A stretch of 32,097 bases of DNA from Bacteroidales bacterium (GTDB lineage: Bacteria > Bacteroidota > Bacteroidia > Bacteroidales > VadinHA17), in NCBI GenBank assembly GCA_025454775.1, contig JALONU010000016.1, positions 1 through 32,097 on the forward strand. Reading direction: 5' to 3'. Shown piece by piece: positions 4,282-9,710 of the stretch. Position numbers and translations under genes: made by a program. Numbering within the stretch: position 1 is the stretch's first letter; each line of letters begins with the position of its first letter. The notes below the pieces were generated by a model that searched no databases, was not told the origin of the DNA, and saw only the letters and a program-made list of their open reading frames with translations.

Positions 4282-5838
4282 TCATTTCACTTCGGAAAAT
4301 TCCTGAAGCTTTACTTTCATGTTTTCAAGCGCCTGAAGCAGATTCTCTTCAGGCTTCAGGAAATCCTGGTCACCCCAGAAGAGGTAGTCATAGTTGACAA
4401 TGGTTTTTGAGAAAACTGAATGAATAGGGGCGAGCTCCTCCCTGTCAAAGCGTTCCACATTATCTGTCCTGATCCCTGAAACAGCAAGCTCAAAAAACAC
4501 ATTGAACTGGCTGTTAAACAGCTTCTTCTTTTTTTTGGATGTGAACACCAGGTCACCCCTCACATGATTCAGGAAATATCTCCCGTTGAGCTTCCTGTAG
4601 CTTACAGAGTACTTTCCTGAGACCGGCCAGGTATCAAATCCCCGTGAGGAGCTCTGTATGAAAGATTCCCTCAGCTCCTGGATGTATTTGGGGTGTATCT
4701 CGAAGTCAACATTAAGCAGGGCATAGTCGTCTGCATTTATGTATATAGTGCCCCTGTAAAGAGGCAGGTTAACTCCCTCTCTCTGCTCAAAATCAATGAC
4801 ATATGCTGCATCATCGTCGGTTGAGACAATATCTGTAAGCCTGTAGGTGTAGTCTTTCATGGTTATACTTTGCAGGAAATCAAAGTCGTTTTTCATTACA
4901 TCGAGCTCGAGGCATGTGCTTAATCCCGCCTTAAGCCGTATGGCCAGAGTATCATCACTTGAGGTGTTCTCTATCTTGCGGCTTTTAAAGATCCTTATCT
5001 GATCGTTGAGAAGGGAACCTGTGTAGGGGCTTTTGAAAACCTGGATGATTGCCTCGGAGTAGACCTGGAGTTCCTGTTTCTTGGTAACCCCTTCCCTGTA
5101 AAAACCTGTCAGCAGGGCAGGAGTGGTTCCGTAATTTCTTCCTGCAGCAACAACAGATTTGGATATAATCTCCTGGGGCACACGGGTTTTGATGATTATT
5201 GCGGGTATCGGTATAAACTCGCGCAGAAGGCTTACATCATAATTGTTACCCAAAGCCTGTTCAACAGGTATCTCCCTGTTCTGATATCCCAGGCATGAAA
5301 ATGAAAGTGTATCTGTGAAAAGAGACCTGGTGATCTTGAGGCCAAATTCACCGGAGGCATTTGCTACCATACCTTTTCCTGTGTTCTTCACGGCCACTGT
5401 TGCATAGGGAAGGGTTTCGCCCGATTCCGCATCAGTTACTCTTCCCGAGATATAAAATATCTCTTCAAGGACCGTGGAATCCGTCAGCGTGATTTTTTGA
5501 GGGGCGATCCTGGAGATGATTATATACCTGTCTATGACAGTGTAAACGAGAGAGTCGGATTTCAGGATGCTGTCGAGAACGCTGCCGAGCCTGACTTCGG
5601 AGAAAGTAAGGTCGACCCTGTTTTCCTCGTTTATCAGGCGGCTGTCGTATGTAAAATTATACCCGGTCTGACGGGAGATGATATCGAGGGCAGCTCCGGT
5701 TTTAACCTGTCCCGCCCTGAATGTATACAGGGAATCAAGCACGTAAGCCTGTCCGCTTACAATTCCGGTAGAGGCCAGCAGGAGAACAAATGCAGTAGCT
5801 TTTAAAATCCTTTCAATATAGCCTGCCAAAGGCTGCAT
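4282..5838 (-). CDS. STN domain plus carboxypeptidase-regulatory-like envelope protein
   Basis: A 518-residue exported protein with a hydrophobic signal sequence (residues 11-29, likely cut before Gln30). Residues about 36-110 look like a secretin/TonB short N-terminal (STN) domain: FRAGQVKTGAALDIIS, YNFTYDSRLI, LGSVLDSILKSDSLVYTVID. Residues about 129-205 are a CarboxypepD_reg-like beta-sandwich (ISGRVTDAESGETLPYATV, SFSCLGYQNREIPV). The remaining 300 residues have no family I can name but align with the second half of the protein at 7301-8611 (FYRE, KSPY/KAPY, VIDFEQ/VIDFIQ). No TonB-dependent barrel follows. It is the last gene of a four-gene operon, 14 bases after the FecR gene. In FecA-type transducers the STN domain contacts FecR, so this protein may be the signal input for the anti-sigma factor; that is inference. 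Confidence 0.8.
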   Translation of the reverse strand: MQPLAGYIERILKATAFVLLLASTGIVSGQAYVLDSLYTFRAGQVKTGAALDIISRQTGYNFTYDSRLINEENRVDLTFSEVRLGSVLDSILKSDSLVYTVIDRYIIISRIAPQKITLTDSTVLEEIFYISGRVTDAESGETLPYATVAVKNTGKGMVANASGEFGLKITRSLFTDTLSFSCLGYQNREIPVEQALGNNYDVSLLREFIPIPAIIIKTRVPQEIISKSVVAAGRNYGTTPALLTGFYREGVTKKQELQVYSEAIIQVFKSPYTGSLLNDQIRIFKSRKIENTSSDDTLAIRLKAGLSTCLELDVMKNDFDFLQSITMKDYTYRLTDIVSTDDDAAYVIDFEQREGVNLPLYRGTIYINADDYALLNVDFEIHPKYIQELRESFIQSSSRGFDTWPVSGKYSVSYRKLNGRYFLNHVRGDLVFTSKKKKKLFNSQFNVFFELAVSGIRTDNVERFDREELAPIHSVFSKTIVNYDYLFWGDQDFLKPEENLLQALENMKVKLQEFSEVK

Positions 5839-5852
5839 TGCATATTCACGGG

Positions 5853-6761
5853 CTATTTTTTTGACAGACGGTAAACATTACCGTCCTTCGAGTAACCCAG
5901 GTTAAAGCTAGCACAAATTATGCTAATAATCGTATCGCTCGACTGGCTTACAATGGCAGAGGTCCATGGGCTCGACAATATGGAGGGATCTTCTGCAACG
6001 ATATCCATATTGTAAACCCTTTTAAGGTCACTGAACACAGTTTCGAGCAGCTGGTTGTCATATTCAAGCCTGCCTGTGTTCCATGCCATATAGTTGGGGT
6101 TGGTGTTAAGGGTTTTTCCTGAATGCTCTGGATCCATGGTCCCGATGTATCCCGGTTCAACCATAATGCTGCGGCCGCCGGAATTATCGGAAAGCATTAC
6201 CGTGCCACTGGTTACGAAAACCTCGACAGCGGCATCGCTGTTACCAGTTATCACGTTGAAGGATGTTCCGACCACCCTGACACTTGCCTTGCCTGCATCA
6301 ATGATGAATGGGTTGGCAGCATCAGGGGCAATTTCGAAGAATGCCTCACCTTCGAGAGTAACGTTTCGGTTCCTTTTACCGAAGCTTGTCCTGTAGGTGA
6401 GGGTGGAATTACGGTTCAGGGTAATTATGCTGCCGTCGGAAAGACTGACGGTCACATTTTTATGATCTCCGTCGGTTGAGGCTGTGATTGTCCTGCTGAA
6501 TGCATCACGGTTGAACGTATATATTGCAGCACTGCCAAGCCCTGCCAGTATAAGGACAGCAGCTGCTATCCTTATGAAGCGTGCATATGGCCTGACTTCC
6601 CTTGCCGGTTTCATTTCGATAACCGGTACCAGGGCTTCTGTTCTCGAACAGACCTTGTTCCATGCCGCATCGACATCGATCGTATGTTCAACTGATGTTC
6701 CTGGCATAATACTGTCCAGTTCACCGTCAATCAACACCTCTTTTTTTGTTTTCTCCTTCAT
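5853..6761 (-). CDS. FecR-family anti-sigma factor (transmembrane)
   Basis: A 302-residue single-pass membrane protein. The cytoplasmic part (residues 1-61) would bind the sigma factor. The membrane segment is about residues 62-83 (FIRIAAAVLILAGLGSAAIY). Outside lie the FecR domain (about 92-190: VTVSLSDGSIITLNRNST, VTLEGEAFFEIAPDAANPF, VRVVGTSFNV, VFVTSGTVML) and a DUF4974-like end (about 233-300: NQLLETVFSDLKRVYNMDIV). The family holds an ECF sigma factor inactive until a periplasmic signal arrives, often from an STN domain. The gene begins two bases after the sigma factor stop, so the pair is almost certainly co-translated. The N-terminal region is longer than the shortest FecR proteins and lacks an obvious tryptophan-rich zone. 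Confidence 0.93.
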   Translation of the reverse strand: MKEKTKKEVLIDGELDSIMPGTSVEHTIDVDAAWNKVCSRTEALVPVIEMKPAREVRPYARFIRIAAAVLILAGLGSAAIYTFNRDAFSRTITASTDGDHKNVTVSLSDGSIITLNRNSTLTYRTSFGKRNRNVTLEGEAFFEIAPDAANPFIIDAGKASVRVVGTSFNVITGNSDAAVEVFVTSGTVMLSDNSGGRSIMVEPGYIGTMDPEHSGKTLNTNPNYMAWNTGRLEYDNQLLETVFSDLKRVYNMDIVAEDPSILSSPWTSAIVSQSSDTIISIICASFNLGYSKDGNVYRLSKK

Positions 6762-6763
6762 TA

Positions 6764-7294
6764 TTACCGTAATGCTTTTCTGAATTCCTTAAGTGCCCGT
6801 CCCATTTCGGCTTCTACTGTTTTCACCGATATGGAGAGCTTTTCTGCTATCTCTGTGTATTTTAAACCTTCAAACCTGTTCATGTTGAATATCCTTCCGC
6901 ATCTTTCAGGAAGTTTTTCAAGGACTTCCGCGATCTTTTTCTGAAGCTCCCCGTATTGCATGACTTCAAGGGGGCTTTCTGCTTTTGGCTGTTCTTCCGC
7001 TGCCATTTCCATAGCATGCTTTTCAATAACCCTGGAATGACTTATCCAGTGAAGGCAGCGGTTGTGTACAGCCCTGAAGAGATATCCGTTCAAAGAACTT
7101 TTAATTGTCAGTGTCTGCCTGTCCTGCCAGAGCCTTACAAAGAGATCCTGGACAATTTCCTCGGCAGTGTCGTGATCTTTGATGATGATCTTTGCATAAC
7201 GTACCAGGGAGACATAGGAGGATCGGAAAAGCGATTCAAATTGTCCGGCATCACCCTGTCTGATCCTCCCTGTGACTTCATCATCCCTGATCAT
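6764..7294 (-). CDS. ECF (group 4) RNA polymerase sigma-70 factor
   Basis: A 176-residue protein with only the two ECF regions. Region 2 spans about residues 21-87 (FESLFRSSYVSLVRYA, DHDTAEEIVQDLFVRLW, SLNGYLFRAVHNRCLHW) and binds the -10 element and core polymerase. Region 4 spans about 118-172 (LEKLPERCGRIFNMNRFEG, YTEIAEKLSISVKTVEAEMG) with a helix-turn-helix for the -35 element. It matches the FecI-like, FecR-associated sigma factors of Bacteroidota. It starts 6 bases after the stop of the surface-protein gene at 7301 and ends 2 bases before the FecR gene. Its likely targets include its own operon, but no promoter for it could be identified in the 8612-8741 spacer. Confidence 0.95.
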   Translation of the reverse strand: MIRDDEVTGRIRQGDAGQFESLFRSSYVSLVRYAKIIIKDHDTAEEIVQDLFVRLWQDRQTLTIKSSLNGYLFRAVHNRCLHWISHSRVIEKHAMEMAAEEQPKAESPLEVMQYGELQKKIAEVLEKLPERCGRIFNMNRFEGLKYTEIAEKLSISVKTVEAEMGRALKEFRKALR

Positions 7295-7300
7295 AGTATA

Positions 7301-8611
7301 TTATTTCTCCAGATCGTCCCTGTCGCTGAATTTAAGCTTCCTGCTAAGCTTTCGGATAGCCGATTCTATACTCTGGTCTGGTTCTATTACGTTGTATTCG
7401 CCCCAGAAGTCGGGATCGGCAAAATCGCTTACTTTTTCAGAGAACACGTCGGTATACCTGAGTCTTTCCTTACCTGCAAATTTAATAACTTCCTCGGCAG
7501 TACGGTCTGTTATTGCGATTTCTGCCATTGTTGTATAATAGGTATGGAACAGCTTCTTTTTCCAGTCGACTTTGAACTTAACCTCAGCCCTTGAGTATTC
7601 GAAGTACCACTTGCCGTTCTGTTCGCGGTATTTTGTTCGGTAAGAGGCAAGCTCAGGTGTAACGTCCATCCCCAGCGGTTTCTTCCTTATGAAGATAGAC
7701 TGTGCTGCTGCCTTGTCGGAAAGGTTGAATCCGAATTCAGCTTCAGTTATTGCGAACGAATCCATCTCAATGTAGAGGCTTCCCATGAAGAGGGGAATGT
7801 CAACGGAAGGTTTCTGTATGAAGTCAATCACATAATGAGGCTTTCCGTTTATTTCGATAACGCTCGAGAGAGAATAATTGTAATATTTCATTGCATCGAG
7901 GGTCAGAACAGCTTCAGTATTCTTGGCAAGGTCGAGATCAAGTGCGCTTATCGGACCTCCCTGCAGCTTGAAGAGAACCGTATCCATTTTTTCGACGTCG
8001 GCGCTCTTCCTTCCCTTGTACATCCTTGCATTGTCGAAACGAAGATCATTATTGTAAGGAGCTTTCATGATTTCCACAACTGCTTCACCGATAGAGACGT
8101 AAGTCCTGTTCTTTCTTATTGTCTCTCTGTAGAATGCCGTCATCAGGTTGGGAACATTTTCGTAGTTCCTGTCAATCCTCCCTATAGCCTTTGACACTAT
8201 ATCAACGGGATCTATGGGTTTTACAATGATCTCCCTGATCGGTATAGGGGCCGGATCGAGCGAGATAACGTTCTTATAACCCTTGTCGCGCAGGGATGAT
8301 ATGGGTACATCCTTGTTCTTATATCCGATGAATGAGAACTCGAGGTTTTTTGAGAGAAGTGTTTCCCCGATCTTGAGAGTGAATTCACCGTCAATATTAG
8401 TGACTATTCCGACATTGGCATCGGAAACCGACACTGAAGCAAAAACAAGCGGTGCGCCTGTTTCGGAGTCAATTACCTTTCCCTTGATGGTAAGAAAGGC
8501 CTGCTGCTCTGATTTCTTCCTTTCACCGGCAGCAGCTGCGGTTACCGACTGGATTGCAAATACCAGGAGAAGGGCCGCAGCGTAAAGTGAAATGTTCCTG
8601 AATGTTTTCAT
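7301..8611 (-). CDS. CarboxypepD_reg-like envelope protein, paralogue of the STN protein
   Basis: A 436-residue protein with an N-terminal signal sequence (residues 1-28, AALLLVFAIQSVTAAAAG). A CarboxypepD_reg-like beta-sandwich follows at about residues 42-120 (IKGKVIDSETGAPLVFASVS, LEFSFIGYKNKDVPI). The last 300 residues form a conserved module of unknown function shared with the protein at 4282-5838: both contain FYRE, SIGEAVVEIMKAPY or its counterpart, a GRK/SRK step, YVIDF, a basic KKKLF stretch and a WG..E/Y ending. It lacks the STN domain. It is the first gene of the operon, directly before the sigma factor, so it may be either a regulated product or a partner of the sensor. Membrane anchoring is not evident, and the substrate or ligand cannot be inferred. 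Confidence 0.75.
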   Translation of the reverse strand: MKTFRNISLYAAALLLVFAIQSVTAAAAGERKKSEQQAFLTIKGKVIDSETGAPLVFASVSVSDANVGIVTNIDGEFTLKIGETLLSKNLEFSFIGYKNKDVPISSLRDKGYKNVISLDPAPIPIREIIVKPIDPVDIVSKAIGRIDRNYENVPNLMTAFYRETIRKNRTYVSIGEAVVEIMKAPYNNDLRFDNARMYKGRKSADVEKMDTVLFKLQGGPISALDLDLAKNTEAVLTLDAMKYYNYSLSSVIEINGKPHYVIDFIQKPSVDIPLFMGSLYIEMDSFAITEAEFGFNLSDKAAAQSIFIRKKPLGMDVTPELASYRTKYREQNGKWYFEYSRAEVKFKVDWKKKLFHTYYTTMAEIAITDRTAEEVIKFAGKERLRYTDVFSEKVSDFADPDFWGEYNVIEPDQSIESAIRKLSRKLKFSDRDDLEK

Positions 8612-8741
8612 GGCTTTATGAAATTTAGTTTATGTTATAATTTGCTTTCAAACTGTAGTTTCATTCACAAGACCGTCATGGCATATCCTTACCCTATTGT
8701 TTTCGTCGGGATATTTTCGGTATTTTACTTCTTTATTCCTG

Positions 8742-9710
8742 ATGATACCTCATATAATAGTCAAACAGGCAAATGCGGCAGCTGCAGCATTCTCCTTCCT
8801 GGCTTCTGTTGTTACCCGGGGAGGCAGAACCTTTGGCATGCCCCCCGCTGCAGGAATTGAGCTTACAAACCATTGCAACCTGAAGTGCCCGGAATGCAGT
8901 TCAGGTTCCGGCATGATGAAGAGGGAGCGTGGTTTCATGAGTCTGGAGCTCTTCGAAAAGGCAGTATCCGAGCTAAGACCCTTCCTGTATAACATGAACC
9001 TGTATTTCCAGGGAGAACCGATGATGCACCCTGATTTCTTCGGGATTCTTGAAAAGTGCAGGGGAATCAACACAACCCTTTCGACGAACGGCCATTTCCT
9101 GACAGGGGAGAATGCCAAAAGAATAGTTCTCTCCGGATTACGGAGGATAATTATTTCGCTGGACGGAATGGACCAGCAGACATATTCTGCTTACAGGGTC
9201 AACGGCGATTTTGAAAAGGTAGTTAAGGGGATCAGGAATATTTCGGCGGCCAGGCAGCAGCATCTCTCCGGTTTGAAAATGATCATTCAGTTCCTGGTAA
9301 ACAGCAGGAATGAGCATCAGATTGAAAGTGCCCGGAAGTTAGCATCGGAGACCGGGGCTGAACTCCGGCTTAAGACTATGCAGATCATAAGAGGGGATCA
9401 TGCTGCATGGCTGCCGGCCGATGAAAGATATTCAAGATACAGGCGTGATGGCAGCAGGTATATTATAAGAAACAGATTCTCCGGCAGATGCCTTAGGGTC
9501 TGGTATAATCCTTTGATAACCTGGGACGGCAAGGTTATTCCCTGCTGCTTCGACAAGGATGCCGATCACGTAATGGGCGATCTGACCAGGAATTCTTTTC
9601 GTGAGATATGGCAGGGTCAGGAATTCAGAAGGTTCCGGGAATCAGTAGTTTCGGGAAGAAAAGATTTTGAAATATGCAGGAATTGCACTTCGGGATTCAG
9701 ACTGTCATAA
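8742..9710 (+). CDS. Radical SAM protein with SPASM-like C-terminus
   Basis: A 322-residue protein from the ATG at 8742; the frame extends to a TTG at 8697 but that part is hydrophobic noise. The radical SAM signature is C45-x3-C49-x2-C52 in NHCNLKCPECSSG, which binds the catalytic 4Fe-4S cluster and S-adenosylmethionine. A glycine-rich GEP motif follows (YFQGEPMMHPDFF), then STNGHFL and ISLDGMDQQTYSAYR as in the partial TIM barrel. The C-terminus has extra cysteines (GRCLR, IPCCFDKD, ICRNC at 312-315) typical of SPASM auxiliary-cluster domains, plus GDLTRNSFREIWQG, so it probably modifies a peptide, protein or small molecule. No candidate precursor peptide was found beside it. It is divergent from the sigma operon and its last 14 bases overlap the end of frr. 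Confidence 0.9.
   Translation: MIPHIIVKQANAAAAAFSFLASVVTRGGRTFGMPPAAGIELTNHCNLKCPECSSGSGMMKRERGFMSLELFEKAVSELRPFLYNMNLYFQGEPMMHPDFFGILEKCRGINTTLSTNGHFLTGENAKRIVLSGLRRIIISLDGMDQQTYSAYRVNGDFEKVVKGIRNISAARQQHLSGLKMIIQFLVNSRNEHQIESARKLASETGAELRLKTMQIIRGDHAAWLPADERYSRYRRDGSRYIIRNRFSGRCLRVWYNPLITWDGKVIPCCFDKDADHVMGDLTRNSFREIWQGQEFRRFRESVVSGRKDFEICRNCTSGFRLS

Follow-up and report, generated by a model that had tools for sequence, protein, structure and literature searches.

How does a sigma factor/FecR pair receive its signal when the neighbouring STN protein has no barrel? This question is raised by four genes in the window, the 32,097-nucleotide stretch of Bacteroidales DNA that we analysed. A preliminary description had recognised here a sigma/FecR/STN unit of four genes, with 6, 2 and 14 bases between successive genes. 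The open reading frames, strand, coordinates and gaps are all as it gave them. On the minus strand, reading from position 8611 to 4282, the order is cpd1, ECF sigma factor, FecR and STNcpd. The features are listed below.

7301..8611, minus strand: cpd1, 436 aa, STN-less paralogue with a signal-peptide-like start
8222-8488 (+ strand numbering), minus strand: CarbopepD_reg_2 domain of cpd1, residues 42-130
7463-8218 (+ strand numbering), minus strand: predicted LolA/RseB-like domain of cpd1, residues about 132-383, from fold matches
6764..7294, minus strand: ECF sigma factor, 176 aa, matching TIGR02985
5853..6761, minus strand: FecR-type anti-sigma factor, 302 aa, with FecR and FecR_C domain matches
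4282..5838, minus strand: STN protein (STNcpd), 518 aa, with a signal-peptide-like start, then STN, CarbopepD_reg (TTR-like) and predicted LolA/RseB-like domains
5509..5730, minus strand: STN domain of STNcpd, residues 37-110, from an AlphaFold2 model and fold match
5227..5460, minus strand: TTR-like CarbopepD_reg domain of STNcpd, residues 127-204, from Pfam, model and fold match
4429..5181, minus strand: predicted LolA/RseB-like domain of STNcpd, residues about 220-470, from model and fold matches

The sigma factor scores 175.8 bits against TIGR02985 (cut-off 126.4). Its gene adjoins that of a FecR-type anti-sigma factor, as FecIRA-type signalling requires. The anti-sigma factor has one hydrophobic segment (residues 60-84), a FecR domain (residues 99-188; PF04773, 66.3 bits) and a FecR_C domain (residues 232-295, positions 5877-6068; PF16344, 30.2 bits). 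Both domain scores are above cut-off, and FecR_C lies past this single putative membrane span. FecR_C was found at E <= 0.001 in all 19 FecR orthologues. The outer two genes are related; cpd1 is 32% identical to STNcpd over query residues 127-512, which bears out the earlier claim that an STN-less paralogue lies ahead of the sigma factor. Each has an N-terminal hydrophobic segment with no cysteine close by.

The STN protein had been described as a barrel-less protein with a CarboxypepD_reg domain, and the data agree. CarbopepD_reg_2 matches residues 130-204 with 60 bits, and no plug or barrel family matched the 518-residue protein at E <= 1 in a Pfam scan. The SusC/RagA model TIGR04056 reaches residues 130-204 only, with 34.1 bits against a cut-off of 368. 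In the AlphaFold2 model, the strands past residue 240 are part of the LolA-like domain. Thus, the STN partner encoded here, STNcpd, is not a TonB-dependent barrel receptor.

The Pfam STN match (residues 60-110) scores 22.6 bits, under the curated cut-off of 28.4. STN was found at E <= 0.001 in 8 of 19 STNcpd orthologues, and a distant orthologue (locus L185) reaches 40.1 bits. A segment that failed to fold as STN in structure prediction would, by the preliminary description, have refuted its reading; in the AlphaFold2 model the segment folds as STN. It aligns with the FecA signalling domain 1zzv (VIA: Z 7.5, rmsd 3.5, 78 aligned), and STN fold matches overall have Z 7.2-8.2, a range that the fold-comparison tool terms common. 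Searching solved structures with the STNcpd sequence gave no matches. With an STNcpd profile, only SusC/RagA-type TTR domains reached significant E.

The last domain of both paralogues has a LolA/RseB-like fold in two models, each predicted separately. The best fold matches are LolA, LolB, RseB and MucB. For STNcpd residues 220-469 (VIA), these include 3bk5 (Z 9.5, rmsd 5.0, 179 aligned), LolA3 9tp6 (Z 9.3, rmsd 4.7, 187 aligned), MucB 6in8 (Z 8.6, rmsd 3.9, 151 aligned) and RseB 2p4b (Z 8.5, rmsd 3.4, 142 aligned). The cpd1 domain alone matched DUF1329, LolA3, RseB, 3bk5 and MucB at E 3.4e-8 to 5.4e-7 with Foldseek, and DUF1329, LolA3, 3bk5, MucB, LolB and RseB at Z 9.4 to 7.5 with VIA. These scores are moderate (Z 7.5-9.5; quoted rmsd 3.4-5.0), TM-scores from Foldseek are low, at about 0.2-0.34 when normalised to the query, and the large animal lipid-transfer proteins ApoB, lipovitellin and MTP score close behind. 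When the LolA-like domains were scanned by themselves against Pfam at E <= 10, no LolA, RseB or MucB family was reported. The scan returned only DUF5686 (PF18939), a weak, partial match below gathering score that covers positions about 123-197 of a 669-long profile, the remainder being unmatched. The region is retained in both paralogues, with many residues invariant. A LolA-like fold on its own is no demonstration of a ligand.

The gene order, which the preliminary description proposed to seek in other genomes, is widely kept. Long STN-protein matches occur in 34 of 59 family genomes, the window's own included, and in the 20 loci fetched from those 34 the four-gene order is unchanged (20/20). 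Among 80 named loci the order is found in 77, the remaining 3 being interrupted by a contig end. The two sets are not independent, because both were chosen by STN-protein match and share contigs. Order-wide, in loci picked by STNcpd match, the ECF, FecR and STNcpd genes lie together in order in 56 of 60, with a protease gene between FecR and STNcpd in 3 of the 56. Contig ends cut 2 of the 4 exceptions. STNcpd without ECF and FecR was seen in 2 loci of a single genus. Genome G053, from the window's own genus (2.2 Mb, 100% complete), gave no STNcpd match (best E 1.3e-5), no exact copy of the two-box site described below and no exbB match.

A promoter-like element lies ahead of the operon.

8668..8697, minus strand: candidate ECF promoter, ATAGGGTA-N15-GGTCTTG, 56 nt to the cpd1 start codon

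With up to 2 mismatches, the two-box element ATAGGGTA-N14/15-GGTCWTA lies ahead of cpd1 in 68 of the 72 orthologous upstream regions, which come from related genomes and are not independent samples; mononucleotide shuffles gave a mean of 0.02 of 72. Of the other four regions, L102, L106 and L151 were elementless under a wider search and one has the element at 3 mismatches. In ECF loci without an adjacent cpd1, the element precedes the ECF gene in 2 of 14 at <=2 mismatches (a count without a shuffle control). The only exact site in the window's own genome is at the operon itself (reversed control, 4). A wider pattern was found in 34 of 50 genomes bearing the module, with 54 sites (23 placed at the operon by their coordinates) against 12 for the reversed control. 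Of 34 genomes without the module, 5 had it, with 7 sites against 10 for the reversed control. We rejected a genus-wide enrichment of the exact pattern, with 131 sites against 121 in the reversed control. The argument therefore rests on position, at the operon and at exbB. One-off sites (L353, L355, L359, L360, L366, L367, L372, L379 and L387) were not counted as targets.

Within the genus, the element also precedes exbB-exbD-exbD-tonB in 16 of 27 loci at <=2 mismatches. Shuffles reached this level in 0.12% of cases, and the reversed control gave 0/27 at <=3 mismatches. The 27 derive from 30 loci; L300 was not located, and L290 and L294, with <160 nt upstream, were omitted. Any such site in the window's own genome is not visible, because the exbB contig begins 93 nt ahead of the gene. 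As an order-wide target exbB was rejected; none of 11 located loci outside the genus has the element at <=2 mismatches, and one has it at 3, a level reached by 18% of shuffles. Another 4 of the 15 outside loci were not located in this count; two of them (L309 and L311) showed 4 and 5 mismatches in a separate reading. With identities of 45-55%, some outside matches may represent different ExbB/TolQ family members. Judged from sequence, the two-box element is a candidate promoter, and its activity is predicted.

These parts resemble several known systems. The FecI-FecR-FecA type (FoxI/FoxR/FoxA, PupI/PupR/PupB) shares the ECF sigma factor, a membrane-bound anti-sigma factor carrying FecR and FecR_C domains, and the STN partner. 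It differs in that STNcpd lacks a plug or barrel family match and ends in a LolA/RseB-like domain; the candidate targets here are the operon itself and, in the genus, TonB-ExbBD, with no receptor among them. RseB, which guards RseA, is a periplasmic protein of LolA fold. MucB, also of LolA fold, guards the anti-sigma factor MucA and responds to lipid, lipids being antagonists of the binding between MucA and MucB (PMC7400510). The LolA-like N-terminal domain of RseB/MucB has a counterpart in both paralogues here, by fold alone. Conversely, RseB/MucB Pfam matches are absent, the adjoining anti-sigma factor is of the FecR/FecR_C type, and coupling would run via STN and FecR_C rather than through an RseA/MucA-type protein. 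The LolA/LolB carriers of Bacteroidota (PMC11885536; also the subject of PMC13103446) share the LolA fold, signal peptide and periplasmic location. The proteins here are larger, with a TTR-like domain (and, in STNcpd, STN) before the LolA-like domain, and have no Pfam LolA match.

STN proteins without a barrel have a precedent in VreA of Pseudomonas (PMC2729926). The PUMA3 system of Pseudomonas aeruginosa (VreA-VreI-VreR) shares a small barrel-less periplasmic STN protein, an ECF sigma factor and a sigma regulator. The second domain of VreA was modelled as TolA/TonB-like, whereas STNcpd has TTR-like and LolA/RseB-like domains; for its C-terminal part, LolA/RseB folds lead and a TolA/TonB-like fold is absent among the matches listed. 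The operon here also has a second, STN-less paralogue. VreA was the only barrel-less receptor found in our literature search, judged mostly by titles and abstract openings. Text searches for a barrel-less STN/FecR arrangement in Bacteroidota and for DUF5686 found nothing, and a non-exhaustive search found no functional paper on the cpd1 family ('carboxypeptidase regulatory-like domain' proteins). The available parts of a TamL paper (PMC12045153) and an F. psychrophilum transcriptome paper (PMC9723704) hold nothing directly bearing on the operon.

On balance, we favour a variant of cell-surface signalling in which a soluble periplasmic sensor takes the place of the TonB-dependent receptor. The STN domain would very probably dock on the FecR C-terminal domain and shield FecR from proteolysis. 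In known systems, the signalling domain of FoxA protects FoxR (PMC11637429) and that of PupB binds the PupR C-terminal domain ahead of the signal (PMC7186176). Upon disturbed outer-membrane assembly, the LolA-like pocket of STNcpd might bind a lipid or lipoprotein acyl chain, a step about which we are slightly more doubtful than confident; the STN-less cpd1 would perhaps feed this pocket or compete with it. Ligand binding would loosen STN from FecR, FecR would be cut and the sigma factor freed. The sigma factor would then probably switch on the operon that encodes it and, within the genus, exbB-exbD-exbD-tonB as well. With a periplasmic STN and lipid-carrier-like protein replacing the channel, the cell may thus sense its own outer envelope and not a nutrient. 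The preliminary description had likewise proposed a sensor of envelope state or of a bound ligand without transport, a reading that our results support in part. Somewhat less likely than not, one polypeptide may join the STN clamp known from TonB receptors with a lipid pocket of MucB/RseB type. Lipid or lipoprotein state would then switch the FecR circuit and, in the genus, determine how much TonB-ExbBD motor is supplied.

Other readings assign the sensing elsewhere. In the canonical arrangement the receptor is a TonB-dependent transporter, which could lie at another site and leave STNcpd as an accessory; with a draft genome 94.8% complete in 288 contigs, such a gene could be missing. We consider this highly improbable. 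The genome has two STN and two FecR_C domains, and the second pair belongs to a complete canonical set of adjacent ECF, FecR and TonB-receptor genes on another contig (C6). Hence, there is no spare receptor for the operon's FecR, and the draft genome offers no candidate for the distant partner that, according to the preliminary description, would refute its reading. In addition, the adjacency of FecR and STNcpd holds order-wide. An unlikely reading is that STNcpd is a co-anti-sigma factor that clamps FecR constitutively, as RseB clamps RseA, with an unlinked protease sensing unfolded or mislocalised outer-membrane protein and the LolA-like domains being structural. A signalling domain can indeed protect its anti-sigma factor without ligand (PMC11637429). 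The operon of family f73 (L232, L235) also has an STN/FecR_C-like, aspartyl protease and PDZ protein, as might be expected of a protease devoted to FecR. However, the aspartyl protease was seen in that family only, and the invariant residues kept in the LolA-like region of both paralogues also speak against a clamp alone.

It is likewise improbable, in our judgement, that cpd1 and STNcpd are LolA-like carriers for outer-membrane biogenesis under sigma/FecR control, with STN serving only as a tether between carrier and FecR or TonB, while the sensing falls to FecR or to TonB. Several observations fit this reading. In family genomes without a long STNcpd match, all 12 fetched loci (L055-L063, L065, L069, L070) have cpd1 but no ECF, FecR or STNcpd, which also fits the sensor reading. 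Beyond the order, 11 genomes have cpd1-like matches that lack a whole STN domain (as protein matches). The older role of cpd1 was therefore probably not signalling. Moreover, cpd1 is the first gene after the candidate promoter, and the element is common to tonB-exbBD in the genus. Against it, STN is present in one paralogue only, the one adjacent to FecR.

If the sensor reading is true, these Bacteroidales would have built an envelope sensor comparable to MucB/RseB out of FecR signalling parts. The FecR and RseB/MucB modes of anti-sigma control would then be united in one protein, and a role would be suggested for the cpd1 family. The analysis also provides a promoter element open to testing, together with a candidate regulon to which, in this genus, the TonB motor belongs.

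The window comes from a draft genome (3.28 Mb, 288 contigs, 94.8% complete). The preliminary description placed four consecutive ORFs here, separated by 6, 2 and 14 bases in operon order. Coordinates, strand and gaps all agreed.

8611–7301, minus strand: cpd1, 436 aa, first gene of the operon
7294–6764, minus strand: ECF sigma factor, 176 aa, passes TIGR02985
6761–5853, minus strand: FecR, 302 aa, passes PF04773 and PF16344
5838–4282, minus strand: STNcpd, 518 aa, barrel-less, with STN, CarbopepD_reg_2 and weak DUF5686 matches (Pfam)

The STN match in STNcpd scored 22.6 bits, under the Pfam cut-off of 28.4. CarbopepD_reg_2 scored 60 bits and DUF5686 was weak (19.7 bits). Cpd1 is an STN-less paralogue, 32% identical to STNcpd residues 127–512. 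Both proteins show a single hydrophobic segment at the N-terminus, with no nearby cysteine. Hence, judged by sequence, both are likely soluble periplasmic proteins. FecR contains a single hydrophobic segment (residues 60–84). The FecR of the window (5853–6761), and of fetched loci L072, L073 and L141, has ~302 aa, compared with ~330 in most orthologues; the reduction falls N-terminal of the hydrophobic segment.

Does the sub-threshold segment fold as STN? An AlphaFold2 model of STNcpd, built on 65 sequences (mean pLDDT 82.4, pTM 0.71), begins with a signal helix. This is followed by a strand-helix-strand-strand-helix-strand-strand unit (37–110), a TTR-like unit (127–204) and long antiparallel strands. 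In VIA-align comparisons, residues 37–116 resembled the signalling domain of FecA (1zzv, Z 7.5, rmsd 3.5, 78 aligned; 2d1u, Z 7.2) and FpvA (5odw, Z 7.5). The model thus supports the STN assignment. Residues 126–211 matched the SusCdex NTE domain (9hfj, Z 12.4, rmsd 1.9, 80 aligned). Residues 220–469 matched 3bk5 (Z 9.5, rmsd 5.0, 179 aligned), a chain that carries the annotation outer membrane lipoprotein-sorting protein domain. They also matched DUF1329 (4z48, Z 9.3), Porphyromonas gingivalis LolA3 (9tp6, Z 9.3), MucB (6in8, Z 8.6), LolB (9tpm, Z 8.5) and RseB (2p4b, Z 8.5).

Taken alone, Z values around 8 are weak support for a LolA/RseB-like fold. The last domain of cpd1, modelled by itself (pLDDT 81.6, pTM 0.83), matched the same group with VIA Z values of 9.4 to 7.5, and the alignments cover most of the domain; the two models are separate, yet share alignment members and are not fully independent. 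Foldseek E-values for this domain were 3.4e-8 (4z48), 3.9e-8 (9tp6), 9.3e-8 (RseB 2v42), 1.3e-7 (3bk5) and 5.4e-7 (MucB 6in9). The top nine rows of the single-domain search were all DUF1329, LolA, RseB, MucB chains or 3bk5, followed by the lipid-transfer proteins MTP, lipovitellin and ApoB. Foldseek TM-scores were low (~0.2–0.34, query-normalised). Sequence profiles did not detect the domain in either the solved-structure or the Pfam comparison. In both proteins (window 4282–5838 and 7301–8611) the LolA-like domain gives a weak match to early positions of the DUF5686 profile (PF18939), and proteins of that family may likewise have this domain ahead of their remaining chain.

A TonB-dependent receptor elsewhere might be the true partner of this FecR. 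We counted STN (PF07660) and FecR_C (PF16344) domains genome-wide at E <= 0.001. Each occurs twice: one copy is at the operon, the other on contig C6. There an ECF and a FecR gene adjoin the gene of a 1117-aa protein that combines STN, CarbopepD_reg, Plug and TonB_dep_Rec domains. By this count no unpaired STN receptor remains in the draft genome's content, leaving no spare candidate.

The four-gene order recurs in other genomes. A long STNcpd match was read, row by row, in 34 of 59 family genomes; all 59 have some match, many being paralogues or SusC-type N-termini. Loci were fetched from 20 of the 34, and all 20 have cpd1-ECF-FecR-STNcpd in this order. A named-genome scan retained 80 of 90 relatives (by title Bacteroidales, Bacteroidia, Bacteroidetes or Bacteroidota MAGs, with one Rikenella microfusus MAG). 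The order held in 77, and the other three loci end at a contig edge; the two locus sets have contigs in common. STNcpd is two ORFs in L118 and L124, both within the 77, reflecting either decay or assembly error. In most loci one flank holds a radical-SAM gene and frr-pyrH-tsf, and the opposite flank an OmpA-like gene and dxs. G053, a genome of the window's genus, gave no long STNcpd match (best E 1.3e-5).

Order-wide, 76 of 295 genomes matched at E <= 1e-40, cpd1-type matches included. Among 60 fetched loci (59 genomes) with matches extending to the STN end, ECF, FecR and STNcpd were ordered in 56, with cpd1 immediately upstream in 42. Two loci are interrupted by contig ends. In L185 and L189 (genus g25) STNcpd lies away from any ECF or FecR gene, beside a 1224–1238 aa ORF. 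Phylum-wide, 16 of 395 genomes matched; the 11 matches outside the order start at query residue 68 or later, and none spans the whole STN domain. All 12 loci fetched from family genomes lacking a long STNcpd match contain cpd1 without ECF, FecR or STNcpd. Given this, and the conserved ECF-FecR-STNcpd set, cpd1 is probably older than the other three, which appear to travel together as a module.

In three of the 56 loci, all from family f73, an additional gene separates FecR from STNcpd. In L232 (2159–3718) and L235 (2088–3653) it encodes a protein of 520–522 aa in which Pfam finds Asp_protease_2 and PDZ domains, as well as an N-terminus resembling FecR_C/STN (below cut-off). In L234 it was assigned from position only. 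This protein could be a dedicated FecR protease docked by STN. In L232, STNcpd is followed by an MG2 and CarboxypepD_reg protein.

A candidate two-box promoter element lies upstream of cpd1.

8668–8697: candidate two-box element upstream of cpd1

The pattern ATAGGGTA-N14/15-GGTCWTA occurred at <=2 mismatches upstream of cpd1 in 68 of 72 regions; mononucleotide shuffles (50 rounds) gave a mean of 0.02. Order-wide, the −35-like box is constant and the −10-like box shifts to TATCATA/CATCATA. Within <=2 mismatches of the genus motif were 30 of 45 cpd1 upstream regions, and 2 of 14 ECF upstream regions without adjacent cpd1 (both without shuffle control). A wider pattern gave 54 sites (reversed control, 12) in 50 module-bearing genomes, with at least one site in 34, and coordinates placed 23 at the operon. 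In 34 module-less genomes there were 7 sites (reversed control, 10), in 5 genomes. The element suggests autoregulation of the operon. With TTG 8697 as its called start, a radical SAM/SPASM ORF (window 8697–9710) shares one base with the candidate promoter; translation may really begin at ATG 8742 or 8838.

At least one exact site was present in 54 of 58 genomes of the genus, with 131 sites in total versus 121 for the reversed pattern. Exact sites lie 125–138 nt upstream of exbB in 15 of 41 exbB-bearing genus genomes, and before exbB in two more outside the 41 (L384, L385). At <=2 mismatches the element is in 16 of 27 exbB upstream regions of the genus and, outside it, in 0 of 11 loci. A separate TATATTTG element, closer to exbB, was read in all 27 aligned rows; in L273–L302 the two-box element often stands beside this type. 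The exbB operon is exbB-exbD-exbD-tonB (PF01618, PF02472 twice, PF03544). In the window's own genome exbB is 93 nt from a contig start, and the visible sequence stops short of the expected site. The gene before exbB in L307 (43–2037) encodes a TPR protein with a terminal CarbopepD_reg_2, a TTR-like domain that it shares with cpd1 and STNcpd.

Other genes that recur downstream of the element encode a ~790 aa family with MG2 and Plug (L363 and L371 by Pfam, Plug over and MG2 under cut-off; L370 by BLAST), a 291-aa MG2 ORF (L386, over cut-off), DUF3836 proteins (L358, L364 by Pfam; L361, L365 by BLAST), DUF3795 proteins (L354, L392) and PNPOx-like proteins (L380 by Pfam; L245, L261 by eye). MG2-domain proteins recur behind the element (L363, L371, L386) or beside the module (L232:5279–7864), and are possible further partners.

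The literature offers mechanistic precedents. The FoxA signalling domain touches the anti-sigma factor FoxR in the signal's absence, shielding it from proteolysis (PMC11637429). PupR has a two-part C-terminal domain, ending in an STN subdomain of its own, to which the PupB domain binds (PMC7186176). MucA/MucB binding is antagonised by lipid signals, sensed in the MucB cavity (PMC7400510). By fold prediction, STNcpd unites both domain kinds, STN and LolA/RseB-like, in a single chain. In the simplest model we infer, the STN domain would guard FecR, the LolA-like pocket would act as the switch, and cpd1 would provide, share or compete for ligand. The function of every part is assigned at this level of inference.

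An ECF/FecR-type system of Pseudomonas aeruginosa includes VreA, a periplasmic STN protein without a barrel, whose second domain is TolA-like by homology modelling (PMC2729926). Hence, the barrel-less principle is already known. Unlike VreA, STNcpd has a predicted LolA/RseB-like sensor part, the operon includes the STN-less twin cpd1 and, in the genus, a candidate TonB-ExbBD promoter element is found. We therefore file the operon as a variant form of cell-surface signalling, outside the FecA, RseB and LolA families.
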